Source: Opitutus sp. GAS368 (GTDB lineage: Bacteria > Verrucomicrobiota > Verrucomicrobiia > Opitutales > Opitutaceae). From it: DNA of 45,332 nt. The stretch covers positions 1 to 45,332 of the forward strand of contig CAMBVX010000010.1 in NCBI GenBank assembly GCA_945871085.1. The letters are read 5' to 3'. The notes under the pieces were generated by a model. That model ran no database searches and had not been told where the DNA came from. It was given only the letters and a program-made list of their open reading frames with translations. Shown in pieces: positions 3,174-45,332 of this stretch (positions are counted from its first letter, which is position 1; every line of letters begins with the position of its first letter). A program made the translations under genes and the position numbers.

Positions 3174-3212
3174 TCGAACCGAAATTCATCCTGCCTGCAT
3201 ATTTTAGACGTT

Positions 3213-3302
3213 TGTTTGTCATCGCGAGCCCGAGGAACGAGGGCGTGGCGATCCAGCTCGGTGGATTGCTTCGTCGCTGCGCTTCTCGCAATCACAAGCA
3301 CG
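3213..3302. repeat. CATCGCG-type palindromic repeat, copy R1 (in a 336-bp gap)
   Basis: Between the NPP gene and the next gene (3174-3509) no coding frame is convincing. The gap holds a copy of a palindromic repeat beginning TTTGTCATCGCGAGCCCGAG and ending near CTTCTCGCAATCACAAG, so its ends pair, with inner GATCCA/TGGATTG arms. Related copies are at 26014, 30282 and 35812. The repeat resembles the widespread GTCATTGCGAG-type palindromes seen between genes in many bacteria. The rest of the gap, including a run of cytosines near 3380, holds nothing I can name. Confidence 0.75.
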
Positions 3303-3509
3303 GCTCGTGCGATCCGCAGCGTTTTTCCAGATCTGCTCTGAGTGTGAAATATACCGGCTAGGAACTGAACACCGGGGATCCCCCCCCCCGCGAAGGCCGG
3401 TGCTCACTCAGCACACAGCTGGCGTCTCCGAATGTTACGATTCGGTGAACTACCGGGTAGGGGTATGCCGACAGCTTGACCCCCCGGGCTGTCACTCCAA
3501 ACGAAGCGC

Positions 3510-6956: not shown

Positions 6957-7080
6957 ATATCAATCGCCCAAAAGTTTCAGACTTTGATTTGCCAGATAGC
7001 CGCGAGCGCCGGCCGGTGGTGATTCGTCCACTCGCTGGCGCTCGCGGCTACCGAAACGTCCAGAGGTCAAAGGACGTGGG
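6957..7080. repeat. 124-bp hairpin repeat, copy A
   Basis: First of four full copies of the same 124-bp unit, bounded by ATATCAATCGCCC at the left and CAAAGGACGTGGG at the right. The central stem (6998-7019 with 7028-7049) pairs an AGCCGCGAGCGCC arm with its complement; this copy has three or more changes in the left arm (GGCCGG instead of AGCGAG), so its hairpin is imperfect. It lies upstream of the SulP gene in a 394-bp gap (6829-7222) that otherwise contains only the terminator at 7138. Confidence 0.9.
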
Positions 7081-7137
7081 TATGACTTCAGTCCGCTCCA
7101 GCGCGAACCCACCCAACTACATCGCTCCATCCGGGCA

Positions 7138-25063: not shown

Positions 25064-25881
25064 AAAACCTCCTCCGCGTCCGCACGGTCATCCTGTCCGA
25101 CGTCCATCTTGGCACCGTCGAATCCAAAGCGGCCGAAGTGAACCATTTTCTCCGGCATACGCGTTGCGCAAAACTCATTTTGAACGGCGATATCATCGAC
25201 GGCTGGCAACTCACCCGCTCCGGCCAGTGGACCAAAGCCCACACTCGCTTCATCCGCATCGTCCTCAAGAAACTGGAGAAACGCGACACGGAGGTTATCT
25301 ACCTCCGGGGCAACCACGACGATATCCTCGCCTCCTTTCTCCCGCTTGATTTCGAGAATCTCCGCATCGTCGAAGACTACATTCACGAGACCCCGCGCGG
25401 CCGCTACCTCGTCCTCCACGGCGACGTCTTCGACACCATTACGAAAAACTTTGTCTGGCTCGCGCACGTCGGCGACTGGGGCTACCAATTCCTCCTGAAA
25501 CTAAACCGCGCCTACAACGTGTGGCGCTCGTGGCGGGGAAAAGAATATTGGTCGCTCAGCAAAGCCATCAAGGCCCGCGTCAAACAGGCGGTCAGCCACG
25601 TCGGCGATTTCGAAACTCACATCGTCGAACTCGCCCGGGCGCGCGGCTGCACCGGCGTCATGTGTGGGCACATTCACACGGCGGCGGACAAAATGATGGG
25701 CGACATTCATTACTTGAATAGCGGAGATTGGGTGGAATCACTTAGCGCCGTCGTCGAGCACTTCGACGGGCGCTTCGAACTCATCCATTTTACGGACTTC
25801 GTGCGCGATTTCCCCCTCGACCCCGTCGACGGTGGCTACGACGACGCCGTCGACACGATCCCCGTCGCGGTGACCAGCTAG
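25060..25881 (+). CDS. plcP: Calcineurin-like metallophosphoesterase, PlcP-like phospholipase C (alternatively LpxH-like)
   Basis: A 273-residue protein without signal peptide. Seen: metal-binding motifs SDVHLG (Asp14, His16), NGDIIDGW (Asp44), RGNHDD (Asn85, His86), LHGDVFD and CGHIHT, and the C-terminal YLNSGDWVESLSAVVEHFDGR, which closely recalls PlcP proteins such as that of Sinorhizobium. PlcP removes the phosphorylated head group from phosphatidylcholine, -ethanolamine or -glycerol under phosphate limitation, giving diacylglycerol. Annotation pipelines often label this family UDP-2,3-diacylglucosamine diphosphatase. Last gene of the glycolipid operon, coupled by ATGA. The partnership with two diacylglycerol glycosyltransferases and a diacylglycerol kinase favours PlcP over LpxH. 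Confidence 0.7.
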   Translation: MKNLLRVRTVILSDVHLGTVESKAAEVNHFLRHTRCAKLILNGDIIDGWQLTRSGQWTKAHTRFIRIVLKKLEKRDTEVIYLRGNHDDILASFLPLDFENLRIVEDYIHETPRGRYLVLHGDVFDTITKNFVWLAHVGDWGYQFLLKLNRAYNVWRSWRGKEYWSLSKAIKARVKQAVSHVGDFETHIVELARARGCTGVMCGHIHTAADKMMGDIHYLNSGDWVESLSAVVEHFDGRFELIHFTDFVRDFPLDPVDGGYDDAVDTIPVAVTS

Positions 25882-26013
25882 TATTTCGCGGTTATTTTCG
25901 GCGAACAAAACCCTGTTTCCCAGCGTCAGTGTCACGTCACACGTGACCCGTGATTTGAGCGTTTATTTGGGAGGAACGTGACGGCGGAATCCTCGCCAAA
26001 AATTTTCGCCGCT

Positions 26014-26099
26014 TGATTGTCATCGCGATCCCGAGGAACGCGGGCGGGGCGAACCCGCGCGATGGAGTGCGTCGCCGCTCCGCTCCTCCTGAACCCCAG
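26014..26099. repeat. CATCGCG-type palindromic repeat, copy R2
   Basis: Second copy of the repeat at 3213, beginning TTGTCATCGCGATCCCGAGG (with one change at the second T) and followed at once by the P1 palindrome, as in copies R3 and R4. Upstream, 25930-25960 holds a small GTCACGT/ACGTGAC palindrome, which also precedes R4 in a related form. The 25882-26384 gap has no gene. Confidence 0.65.
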
Positions 26100-26100
26100 C

Positions 26101-26332
26101 GGGTTTGTCCTCGCGCAGGAGCCGCCGCGACTGCGGCAATCCACGGCGCACGGCCCGCTGATATCAATCGCCCAAAAGAGTCAGACTTTGATTTGCCAGG
26201 TAGCCGCGAGCGCCAGCGAGTGGTGATCCGTCCACTCGCTGGCGCTCGCGGCTACCGAAAAGTCCAGTGATCAAAGGACGTGGGTATGAATGGCCGTCTT
26301 CGGCAAAGCCTCCTTCGCTCTGACAAACGCAG
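26101..26332. repeat. CATTGCG-type palindrome P1, interrupted by the 124-bp element B
   Basis: Left half 26101-26160 (TTTGTCCTCGCGCAGGAG, GCGGCAATCCA) and right half 26285-26332 (ATGAATGGCCGTCTTCGG, GCCTCCTTCGC, TGACAAA) correspond to the two halves of the intact palindrome at 30369-30461. The 124-bp element lies exactly between them. Confidence 0.65.
26161..26284. repeat. 124-bp hairpin repeat, copy B (nested)
   Basis: Full copy, ATATCAATCGCCC to CAAAGGACGTGGG. The stem is perfect over 25 bp (26199-26223 with 26232-26256) around the 8-nt loop TGATCCGT, and outer CTTTGAT/ATCAAAG arms can extend it. Inserted within palindrome P1. Confidence 0.92.
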
Positions 26333-26384
26333 AGAGAGACTCAAACCGTGTTGCGCTTTCACGCCGGACTGGGTCCTGCGTCGA

Positions 26385-30159: not shown

Positions 30160-30281
30160 CGCCCTTGTCCGGGGCGACCGCACCGGGCCCGGGATCCGCA
30201 TCGAGCACCCCGGTCGACCACGCGCCGCCGCCCAGCGACCGCGCCTCGGTCCACTCTGCTAGTGCGGATATTTCACACTCC

Positions 30282-30364
30282 TGTTTGTCATCGCGAGCCC
30301 GAGAAACGAGGGCGTGGCGAGCCAGCTAGTTGGATTGCTTCGTCGCTGCGCTCCTCATGAACAC
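30282..30364. repeat. CATCGCG-type palindromic repeat, copy R3
   Basis: Starts TGTTTGTCATCGCGAGCCCG and runs through TGGATTGCTTCGTCGCTGCG to CTCATGAACAC, then passes straight into palindrome P2. Lies in the 570-bp gap between the GH3 gene and the decayed kinase; the rest of that gap (30160-30281 and 30465-30729) shows nothing I can name. Confidence 0.75.
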
Positions 30365-30368
30365 ACCC

Positions 30369-30461
30369 TGTTTGTCATTGCGAAGGAGCCCGAGCGACTG
30401 CGGCAATCCACCGCGCACCCCCGATGGATTGCCGCAATCGGCCAGCCTCCTTCGCAATGAC
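30369..30461. repeat. CATTGCG-type palindrome P2 (intact)
   Basis: A 93-bp palindrome with perfect 17-bp ends (TTGTCATTGCGAAGGAG with CTCCTTCGCAATGACAA) and a perfect inner 12-bp pair (TGCGGCAATCCA with TGGATTGCCGCA). This is the reference copy for the interrupted P1 and the decayed P3 and P4. Confidence 0.85.
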
Positions 30462-30729
30462 AAGCTTGGGGAAGTTCATCGCCCCCTCCCCTCAACGGCT
30501 CGGAGGTGCTCCGCGTCCTCGCCCTGACAAGACTTCGAGTGGGTGGGGACCAGGGTGTAGCGGTTTCACGCGTGAGTGTGAAATTTTCGGGCCAGGCTAC
30601 CCGTCGCCCACGCGGCCCCAGCCTCCCCTGCGAATCGACCGAATCCCGCAGGAAAAACGCGTCAACCCGGCAACGCATCCGTGGCCCTCCCTCCTCACCA
30701 ATGCCCGCGTCCCCGCGCGCACGTCCACC

Positions 30730-31305: not shown

Positions 31306-31429
31306 TATCAATCGCCCAAATGATTCAGACTTTGATTTGCCGGGTAGCCGCGAGCGCCAGCGAGGGTTGATCCGTCCACTCGCTGGCGCTCGCGGCCACC
31401 GAAAAGTCCAGAGTTCAAAGGACGTTGGG
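31306..31429. repeat. 124-bp hairpin repeat, copy C (between two broken genes)
   Basis: Full-length copy, ATATCAATCGCCC to CAAAGGACGTTGGG, with a few changes in the stem (AGGGT for AGTGG; GGCCACC for GGCTACC). The ppk2 stop codon (31415-31417) lies inside it and the kinase remnant begins at its other end. Confidence 0.9.
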
Positions 31430-32301
31430 ATCAAACTGCCGTTCGGGGAGGACGATCGGATCTCGCGCCACTTCGGTGTAGTTCACCTGGCTCAGCAGAT
31501 GATGGATGCAGTTCAACCGCGCTTTCTTTTTTTCCACCGCCGGCACGACCCACCACGGAGCCTCCGGGATGTGCGTCCGCTGCAGCATCACTTCCTTCGC
31601 CTTCGTGTAGAGTTCCCACCGTTTGCGCGACTCCAAATCCATCGGACTGAGTTTCCATTGCTTCAACGGATCATTGATCCGGCAGCGGAACCGAAATTCT
31701 GTTCCTCGTCGGAAATGGAAAACCAATACTTGATTACTTGGATGCCGGAACGCACGAGCATCTTTTCGAATTCGGGCACCGACCGAAAAAATTCTTCATA
31801 CTCCGCATCGCTGCAAAATCCCATCACCCGCTCCACGCCCGCCCGGTTATACCAACTCCGGTCAAACAGCACCCTCTCGCCCGCCGCCGGAAGATGCGCG
31901 CTATAGCGTTGGAAATACCACTGGGTCTTCTCGCGGTCCGTCGGGGCGGGCAACGCGGCCACCCGACACACACGGGGGTTCAGTCGTTGCGTGATCCGCT
32001 TGATCACTCCGCCCTTGCCGGCCGCATCACGCCCCTCGCACACAATCACCAGACGGTGTCCGGTTTCCACCACCCAGTCGTGGAGCCGGACCAACTCCCC
32101 CTGGAGCCGGAACAGCTCGGTAAAATAAACGCGGCGCGCCGCCGCATCAGAGTCCCCTTCGGTCGGTCGCGACGCGGTCCCAGGTTCCGTCGCCTCCCCA
32201 TCTTCGCGCTCCATTTCCAATTCCTCATCGAACTCATCAATCGCCTCACGGTGAATCCGCTTAAATAAGAGACTTTCGGGAGAGGGTGTGGGCTCGGCCA
32301 T
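31415..32301 (-). pseudogene. ppk2: Polyphosphate kinase 2 (PPK2), frameshifted
   Basis: The first frame (from ATG 32301) carries CEGRDAAGKGGVIKRI (Walker A), TDREKTQWYFQRY, VLFDRSWYNRAGVERVMGFC and YWFSISDEEQ, then breaks. The second frame continues at once with EFRFRCRINDPLKQWKLSPM, THIPEAPWWVV, ARLNCIHHLLSQVNY and VVLPERQF. One missing base near 31698 explains both; no slippery heptamer is there. PPK2 moves phosphate between polyphosphate and nucleotides. The last residues (about DPNVL) and the stop are encoded by the 124-bp repeat, so the native C-terminus may be trimmed too. It could be a real mutation or a sequencing error. It is divergent from btaA, with a PHO-box-like site facing it. 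Confidence 0.85.
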
Positions 32302-35544: not shown

Positions 35545-35668
35545 ATATCAGTCGCCCAAAAAATCCAGACTTTGCTTTGCCCGGTAGCCGCGAGCGCCAG
35601 CGAGTGGTGATCCGTCCACTCGCTGGCGCTCGCGGCTACCGAAAAGTCCAGAGTTCAAAGGACGTTGG
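35545..35668. repeat. 124-bp hairpin repeat, copy D
   Basis: Full copy, ATATCAGTCGCCC to CAAAGGACGTTGG, with a perfect 25-bp stem (35583-35607 with 35616-35640) around TGATCCGT, the same loop as copy B. Confidence 0.92.
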
Positions 35669-35717
35669 TCTTACTCGGTTAAGTTCATTGCCAAAAAAAA
35701 CCGAATTCTCAGAGGGA

Positions 35718-36155
35718 GTGTCACGTAATAGGCCCGTAATACGTGACACTTTTCTGGGACGTTTTTTTGAGCGAAAATTAGCAGAGTAATACTCGCCCAG
35801 AAATTTGACTCTTGTTTGTCACTACGAGCCCGAGAAGCGCGGGCGTAGCGATCCAGCTCCGTGGAATGCTTCGTCGCTACAATACTCATGAACACCTGAG
35901 GTTTGTCATTGCGCGCCCGGCTCGGCGGGTGCGGCAATCCAGCTGCAATTCCAGCGGGATCACTCGGGCGCTGGGCTCCTCGCGATGACCACGAGGGTTC
36001 ATGGCTCCTTCCACCCCAGGCGCTGCGCCTTGGTCGAGCTCTCCCCATGAACGCATCGGGTTTGTCATTGCGCTGGAACCGAAGCGACGGCGGCAATCCA
36101 TGACGCACTGCCCGCTGGATGGCCCCAGTCGGCCAACCTCCGGCGCAACGACCCG
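35718..36155. repeat. Cluster of palindromic repeats (hairpin, R4, P3, P4)
   Basis: 35718-35750: GTGTCACGTA/TACGTGACAC hairpin. 35812-35895: R4, beginning TTGTTTGTCACTACGAGCCC. 35900-35998: P3 (TTTGTCATTGCGCGCCCGG, GCGGCAATCCAG, CTCCTCGCGATGACCAC). 36058-36155: P4 (TTTGTCATTGCGCTGGAACC, GCGGCAATCCATG, then a decayed right half). R4 and P3 follow one another as R3-P2 and R2-P1 do. The rest of the 35669-36372 gap shows no gene; the sigma factor frame is open through part of it but its extension is not credible. Confidence 0.65.
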
Positions 36156-43219: not shown

Positions 43220-43413
43220 GATTTCGAAACGCTTTTCTTGGTGCTTATTTCTCGAGGAGATTGGTGGACGAACGGCAACGGTTTCTCATCGGGAAAAACA
43301 CCCTTCCGGTTCACAGTTGCGAAAAACTCATCGCGTTCGCAGTCGATCTCCCGTCATTGGCACTGGAGTGTTGGAAAAATTCTCCGACATCGTCTTCGGC
43401 CAAATCGAAAATC

Positions 43414-44289
43414 ATGCGCCCCCTATCCCTCCTTTCCTGCGGTGAAATGCTTTGGGACCTTTTCTCTGATGGCCCGCGCTTCGGTGGTGCGCCCGCGAAC
43501 TTCGCCTGCCACGCCGCGCTCCACGGCGGCCTCGTCACCATGCTCAGTGCCGTTGGCGACGATCCGCGCGGTCACGAGGCCACCGAAATTCTTCGTCGCT
43601 TCGGTATCGATACCTCGCTCATCCAAACCATCGCCACAGCTCCCACCGGCGCCGTCGGCGTGAGCGTCGATGCGGCAGGCAAACCCAGTTTCGAAATTCA
43701 CGCCAACTCCGCGTGGGACCAGATCGCGTGGACTCCCGCACTCGAAACCCGCCTCGCCGACGTTGACGCCATTTACTTCGGAACGCTCGGTCAACGCAGT
43801 CCCATTTCCCGGGCAACGATCCGCCGCGCCCTCGCCGTCGCGAAGTCGCGTGGCCTCCCGCGAATGCTCGATGTGAACTTGCGCCGTCCGTTCTTCGACG
43901 CCGCGTTGATCCGCGAATCGGTCGCGGCGGCCAGCGTGCTCAAACTCAGCGATGACGAACTTGATGAGATGCTCACGGCCTGCGGCCTCACCCCGGGGAG
44001 AGACCCGAGCGATTCCGTCCGTGCCTTGCGCGTGCGTTTCGACCTCGATCTCGTCGCGCTCACGCGCGGCCCCGCCGGAGCACTGCTCGTTTCCGCCACC
44101 GAAGTTATCGATCAACCCGGCATTCCCACAGTGGTCCGCGACACGGTTGGCGCCGGTGATTCGTTCACGGCCGCCCTCGTCGTCGGCCTGCTGGGGGCGG
44201 ACTCGTTGCAAACGATCGCTCGCGTCGCCTGCGAGACGGCGGCCGAGGTCTGCACCTATGCAGGGGCGCTCCCGGAAACACCGAAGTAA
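43414..44289 (+). CDS. PfkB family sugar kinase (fructokinase-like)
   Basis: A 291-residue ribokinase-family enzyme from ATG 43414. Seen: LSCGEMLWDLFSDGPRFGGAPANF with the GGAPANF substrate-binding signature near 24-30 (written here as FSDGPRFGGAPANFACHA), SAVGDDPRGHEATEILRRFG, and the C-terminal ATP/catalytic signature DTVGAGDSFTAAL with probable catalytic Asp249. The family phosphorylates fructose or a similar hexose in the cytoplasm. A second, very similar copy follows at 44854. Upstream codons to 43261 do not look like protein. Confidence 0.9.
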   Translation: MRPLSLLSCGEMLWDLFSDGPRFGGAPANFACHAALHGGLVTMLSAVGDDPRGHEATEILRRFGIDTSLIQTIATAPTGAVGVSVDAAGKPSFEIHANSAWDQIAWTPALETRLADVDAIYFGTLGQRSPISRATIRRALAVAKSRGLPRMLDVNLRRPFFDAALIRESVAAASVLKLSDDELDEMLTACGLTPGRDPSDSVRALRVRFDLDLVALTRGPAGALLVSATEVIDQPGIPTVVRDTVGAGDSFTAALVVGLLGADSLQTIARVACETAAEVCTYAGALPETPK

Positions 44290-44620: not shown

Positions 44621-44853
44621 GGAAAAGAGAAAAGACGTGCACCAAAACGAAGCAAGCACGGCCTTTGTGCCTTGTCGGAAGATTGGCCCGTCGTGGTCCT
44701 AAGGCCGCCCAACCAACCAACCGGGATCTGCGTTCGCGTTCGGCGTTCAACTTTCGCAGTGGTGATCTAAAATCAGCACGGTCCCGACAATCGATGAAAC
44801 TGTAAGCCAGTGATAAATCCCGCGACATATTCTCTGCTCAAAATTGGCAACGC

Positions 44854-45332
44854 GTGCACTACCCCTCCATCCTTTCCTGGGGCGAAATGCTGTGGGACCA
44901 TTTCCCCACTGGACCGCGCTTCGGCGGTGCGCCGGCTAACTTCGCTTGTCACGCCCGGCTGCACGGCGGCCGCGTCACCCTGCTCAGTGCCGTTGGCGAT
45001 GATCCGCGCGGCCACGAGGCCACCGAGATTCTTTGTCGCTTCGGTCTGGATACATCGCTCATCCAAACGATCGCCACAGCTCCCACCGGTGCCGTCGGCG
45101 TGAGCGTAGATGCGGCCGGCAAACCCAGTTTCGAGATTCACACCCCTTCCGCGTGGGACCACCTCGCGTGGACTCCCGCGCTCGCCGCCCGTCTCGCTGA
45201 CGTCGATGCGCTCTACTTCGGCACGCTCGGGCAGCGCGGTGCCATTTCCCGCGCGACGATCCGCCGCGCCCTCGCCGTCGCCACGTCCCGGGGCCTCATG
45301 CGGGTGCTCGACGTCAATTTACGCCGGCCGTT
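44854..45332 (+). CDS. Second PfkB family sugar kinase, 3' end outside window
   Basis: From GTG 44854 the frame is open to the window end (159 codons seen). Seen: LSWGEMLWDHFPTGPRFGG, GGAPANFACHARLHGG, SAVGDDPRGHEATEILCRFG and YFGTLGQRGAISRATIRRAL, nearly the same as the kinase at 43414, with long stretches of identical DNA. It is a tandem paralogue. Its catalytic GAGD motif lies beyond the window, so whether it is intact is not known. Confidence 0.85.
   Translation, partial: MHYPSILSWGEMLWDHFPTGPRFGGAPANFACHARLHGGRVTLLSAVGDDPRGHEATEILCRFGLDTSLIQTIATAPTGAVGVSVDAAGKPSFEIHTPSAWDHLAWTPALAARLADVDALYFGTLGQRGAISRATIRRALAVATSRGLMRVLDVNLRRP

Follow-up and report, generated by a model that had tools for sequence, protein, structure and literature searches.

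The window analysed here, the whole stretch of 45,332 nucleotides of Opitutus sp. GAS368 (contig CAMBVX010000010.1), contains a 503-bp intergenic block of repeats (25882-26384) between two convergent genes whose stop codons end at 25881 and 26385. Stacked in this block, all on the forward strand, are a CATCGCG-type repeat (family D3, 26009-26090), the left part of a CATTGCG palindrome (about 26103-26158), a 125-bp MITE without an open reading frame which is referred to as copy B (26162-26286), and the right part of the same palindrome (26290-26326, or from 26287 if the adjoining TGA is included), which ends in ...CCTCCTTCGCTCTGACAA. Copy B is directly preceded by one TGA (26159-26161) and followed by another (26287-26289). 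Its left end TATCAATCGCCC and its right end GGACGTGGGTA (reverse complement TACCCACGTCC) match poorly as inverted repeats, and in its core two GTAG-tagged palindromes stand in inverted orientation (GGTAGCCGCGAGCGCCAGCGAGTGG...CCACTCGCTGGCGCTCGCGGCTACC). Three further forward-strand copies are present in the window, namely A (6958-7082) flanked by TGA/TGA, C (31306-31430) by TCA/TCA, and D (35546-35670) by TTA/TTA. The limits of the element were set by comparing these four copies, and then 75 copies from the genome, which gave a 125-bp unit TATCAATCGCCC...GGACGTTGGTA with TNA at either flank. A methyltransferase ORF adjoining copy B was considered as a possible transposase and rejected, as it is not one, and an Rfam search of the window gave no match.

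A profile built from 27 copies of the CATTGCG family was searched against 71 rejoined sites of the copy B family and matched only two of them, the site of copy B itself (nhmmer E=6.9e-20) and that of a copy on contig C42 (E=1.2e-31). The match of the rejoined copy B site is far above chance, and the proposal of the earlier note that the flanks of copy B rejoin into a palindrome of this family is therefore upheld. Both forward-strand palindromes which it had offered for comparison, the intact one at 30369-30466, here the reference empty site, and the more diverged P4 at 36060-36152, which is the closest to the empty site of B, are members of that same family. What had been read as a split of the palindrome at one exact junction turned out differently once the proposed alignment of all copies with their flanks was carried out, as this exposed a TNA target and a 3-bp duplication, with TGA repeated on both sides of the insert. 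The rejoined B site has a single TGA where the intact copy (30425-30427) and P4 read TGG, so that the junction CCCGC-TGA-element-TGA-ATGG is to be compared with CCCGCTGGATGG (CCCGC-TGG-ATGG) in the intact palindrome. The C42 junction is GAGCC-TAA-element-TAA-GCGACT against a family consensus of GAGCCTAAGCGACT, and only the TAA is repeated. The two insertions are independent, both lie in palindromes whose intact sequence is known, and they read alike; such interrupted palindromes act as natural empty-site controls and give the target duplication of this MITE family with single-base precision. As an event the nested insertion is ordinary; the palindrome was there first and copy B came later.

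About 74 right-arm copies of the element were found in the 7.37-Mb Opitutaceae genome, with none for a reversed-pattern control. When copies were extracted together with their flanks, 55 of 72 had TNA on both sides; among these 55 the middle base matched in 37 and differed in 18, the shuffled expectation for matches being a mean of 14.3 and a maximum of 27 in 10,000 shuffles. Terminal inverted repeats TAYCAAYSKCC (TACCAAYG...) are present at both ends, imperfect inside, and better in relatives such as those at loci L188 and L349. Being 125 bp long, gene-less and present in many copies, with terminal inverted repeats and a target duplication, copy B and its family are MITEs. It could be argued that the canonical TA duplication of IS630 holds here and that the apparent TNA is a flanking preference only, since IS630/Tc1/mariner elements are described as TA-duplicating (PMC8533490) and the ends of most copies do begin and finish with TA. 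This reading would however predict GAGCC-TAA-TA-TAA-GCGACT as the empty site of the C42 copy, whereas intact members of the palindrome family read GAGCC-TAA-GCGACT; the intact palindromes have no extra TA, and the two empty sites thus argue against a 2-bp TA duplication. The agreement of the middle base of paired TNAs, far above chance, and the lack of TA at some ends, as in TGA-GGCCAATCG...TTGGCA-TGA at L188, point the same way, and we regard a TA duplication as the least probable of the alternatives, with next to no weight.

Relatives were scanned for paired ends, and in genome G193 an element of about 1.15 kb (locus L361), TTA-TACCAACGTCCC...GGGACGTTGGTA-TGA, its ends being also given as TTA-TACCAACGTCCCTAGATGAATAGACTA...AAGGGACGTTGGTA-TGA, encodes one ORF of 366 amino acids which is an IS630-family transposase (NF033545 E=3.5e-43, 148 bits with a cut-off of 100; PF13358, DDE_3, E=1.1e-16, 61 bits with a cut-off of 28.6; HTH_33 also present). 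Of 252 family genomes, 68 hold homologues of this transposase, and residues D197, D277 and E310 are kept across eight aligned transposases, with a spacing of 32 residues between D277 and E310. In the present draft genome the IS630-type copies, on contigs C240 and C527, are frameshifted or truncated, and no intact copy was found in it. In 14 IS copies the ends could be read; each has TNA on either side, and in 11 of the 14 the two TNAs are identical, a result reached by 4 of 100,000 shuffles. These copies have TNA in place of the TA target duplication described for IS630. Compared with the MITE end consensus, the end of the C240 relic agrees at 21 of 27 positions and the IS ends of G003, G033 and G193 agree at 20 of 27, while those of G044, G002, G026 and G161 are beyond TACCAA no better than shuffles, so that a clear match to the MITE is confined to part of the clade. 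In G061 (locus L406, around position 748) an inserted IS630-type copy abuts a MITE end, the two having one TCA in common, which indicates that insertions can reuse an existing TNA duplication. The element and its boundaries, the TNA duplication, the reconstruction of the empty site, the common ends and the relic transposase genes can all be read from the sequence, and we infer that the MITEs are probably moved by this IS630-type clade.

Two other types of transposase were weighed as movers. TNA duplications are attributed to the IS1031 group of IS5, so that a different DDE family, such as an IS5/IS1031-type one, could move the MITE and the resemblance to IS630 be coincidental. Against this, neither DDE_Tnp_1_2 (IS5-type) nor ISAzo13 (PF07592) has a match in this genome, the latter being present in four of nine genomes of the genus; 30 DDE_Tnp_1 loci in the genus lack the ends, save for adjacent MITEs at L225 and L229, and IS630 elements combine the end motif with the TNA duplication. 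We consider this explanation improbable. The MITE at L225 (2244-2356, G007) has the same ends and TGA/TGA around an unrelated palindrome (GACTGGAGGCTCGCCCGC...) and adjoins a DDE_Tnp_1 transposase gene. To the same low degree we would credit the view that the copies are REP or REPIN elements moved by a Y1 (RAYT) and not by a DDE transposase. It draws on the core, which consists of inverted GTAG-ended palindromes (GTAGCCGCGAGCG...), a hallmark of REPs, and is found alone in other genera of the family, where the flanking ends are missing; Y1 transposase genes do occur in the genus, and GTAG REPs abound in O. terrae (PMC3733652). The unit however ends at TACCAAYG repeats with 3-bp TNA duplications, which are not expected of a single-strand Y1 transposase, and the same ends surround unrelated cores. 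The full unit lies beside a Y1 gene in none of 30 genus loci, in one of which there was an isolated core and in two weak isolated end-like matches.

The ends of the 125-bp family also occur on other elements. They surround half of its core in a second family, whose members are about 95 bp long. Hybrids of the two families exist, and one at L168 (1108-1237, G000:C309), which joins a 95-bp-family left end to a 125-bp-family right end, indicates recombination between MITE families. The ends, of the TACCAACGTC type, also enclose CATTGCG palindromes at L166 (1184-1477, 291 bp, TTA/TTA) and L369 (3751-3885, TTA/TTA), so that this palindrome is both a target, as for copy B, and a cargo; several other palindromes in relatives are wrapped by the same ends as well. 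The end pattern TNATACCAACGTCNNKTGANNT, with one mismatch allowed, picked up 42 of the 252 genomes of the family and 17 of its 49 genera, and the control gave 0 matches in every genome listed. Most named records bearing the ends are MAGs of Opitutaceae, Opitutae or Opitutus. The relative G061 agrees in positions and in sequence with the Opitutaceae MAG JAUYAK01 (L303), so that the window probably belongs to that family. In one MAG labelled 'Akkermansia muciniphila' (L297, L308, L317) the MITE copies coincide in place with those of G210 of Opitutaceae, and this MAG is probably mislabelled.

The insertion of copy B had been placed by the earlier note at the centre of the palindrome, from which it had suggested that hairpin loops are the targets; neither point survived closer analysis. 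The arms of the intact palindrome, 30372-30413 and 30422-30463, are separated by an 8-nt loop, and the equivalent of the target (30425-30427) lies 8-10 nt 3' of the centre, next to the loop but in the 3' arm. The C42 copy (L098) is the one further case of insertion into a CATTGCG palindrome, and its target is some 25 nt away from the centre, so that the position of insertion within this palindrome family, seen in 2 of 71 sites, is not consistent. When 55 rejoined targets were compared with 1086 control TNAs drawn from the same flanking sequences, 21.8% of targets and 20.5% of controls fell in a predicted apical loop (p=0.86), and there was no difference in enclosing pairs or folding energy. 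A preference for hairpin loops or palindrome centres, like that of IS elements which target REP palindromes (PMC1525189), would accord with the location of copy B near the apex, with the two CATTGCG palindromes among 71 sites, and with the L012 site near the middle of a GTGTCACG...CGTGACAC palindrome. The loop frequency equal to that of controls and the off-centre positions of B and C42 speak against it, and 2 of 71 fits chance provided that most insertions fall between genes: at about 98 bp each, 45-106 CATTGCG copies make up some 0.5-1.2% of the intergenic DNA, if this is assumed to total about 0.9 Mb, and an estimated 0.4-0.8 such insertions would be expected. This preference is very unlikely in our judgement, and hairpin targeting is removed as an explanation of this nested repeat; the simplest targeting rule is the trinucleotide TNA. 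A B-family copy at L002 (G000:C65) lies inside a perfect palindrome (AACGGACTTAACTCCGATATTGGAGTTAAGTCCGTT), and it too is off-centre.

The nesting had further been taken as a sign of recent mobility. That a mobile element sits inside another repeat stands, given the target duplication and the roughly 74 relatives, but 'recent' fares less well, as copy B is not unusually young: it has 5 differences in 125 bp (96%) from the consensus of 71 copies, which is the median (rank 49 of 71). The whole 503-bp block is absent or reduced in the sister genomes G001, G003 and G008 (80-84% DNA identity), where the convergent genes abut, with a 4-bp overlap in G001 and G003 and a distance of 21 bp in G008; the block is either a pile-up of repeats specific to this lineage or a segment that the sisters have lost. 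CATCGCG-type repeats (3208-3313, 26009-26114, 30277-30382 and 35808-35913) immediately precede CATTGCG palindromes in several places, which looks like joint travel or expansion of the two repeats. Elsewhere in the window two 300-nt direct repeats (43402-43701 and 44842-45141), 86% identical and 1440 bp apart, are probably a duplicated gene segment.

The explanation that we favour, and which we hold to be highly probable, is that copy B is a non-autonomous MITE which a cut-and-paste DDE transposase would have inserted at a TGA, i.e., a TNA site, in one arm of the CATTGCG palindrome, with duplication of the 3-bp target. The transposase would have been supplied by an IS630-family clade of the Opitutaceae, its probable source, which shares the ends TACCAAYG...GACTT and the TNA duplication. 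The palindrome would have been hit through its abundance in intergenic DNA and its TNA content, and not through hairpin formation. To a broader scenario we would give an even chance, namely that a bacterial IS630 clade has switched from TA to TNA and drives MITEs across the Opitutaceae, with constant ends placed around many unrelated palindromes (GTAG REPs, CATTGCG and others), and with REP-type palindromes repeatedly captured as cargo and hit as targets. The TNA-using IS630-type elements would also tie many intergenic repeats of the Opitutaceae to one kind of transposase.

RUP, NEMIS/Correia and ERIC-like elements are IS630-type bacterial MITEs, and the family described here is like them in being non-coding and within 70-300 bp, with terminal repeats, a high copy number and a palindromic core; unlike them it has a 3-bp TNA in place of TA, and the same ends wrap many unrelated palindromic cores. 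Use of TNA is known from Zator elements. MITEs, IS630-type MITEs and mobile elements within REP palindromes are all already known (PMC1525189, PMC3733652). The putative source elements agree with the IS630 family in their single transposase ORF of about 366 amino acids (winged helix-turn-helix and DDE_3), their length of about 1.15 kb, their terminal repeats and an AT-containing target, and differ in the 32-residue spacing of D277 and E310 and in the 3-bp TNA, as the whole IS630-Tc1-mariner group is stated to duplicate TA, with the exception of Sailor elements, which duplicate TATA (PMC8533490). IS630-type elements using TNA depart from what is described as the general target rule of the group, and the TNA target is best seen as a variant within the IS630 kind, bacterial IS630-like elements here probably copying TNA rather than the usual TA. 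In the literature searched (most subscription journals lay outside its scope) no description of TNA in bacterial IS630 was found, and a search for TNA linked with MITEs or IS630 returned nothing relevant. Fot/pogo elements are IS630-Tc1-mariner relatives with a 3-bp duplication (TAA, and also TAAA, are reported for Fot; PMC7386202), but they are eukaryotic and their 3-bp target is TAA only, not TNA. GTAG REPs are abundant in Opitutus terrae, and in Anabaena variabilis GTAG-15 dimers lie inside longer palindromes with complementary ends (PMC3733652); the inverted GTAG dimer core and its enclosure are features in common with copy B, whereas copy B is defined as a DDE-type MITE by its outer ends together with the TNA duplications, and no Y1 gene is linked (30 Y1 loci in the genus). 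Finally, IS1397, IS621 and ISPpu9 are likewise mobile elements within a repeated palindrome (PMC1525189), but those elements select the palindrome, while for copy B the palindrome is an incidental TNA target.
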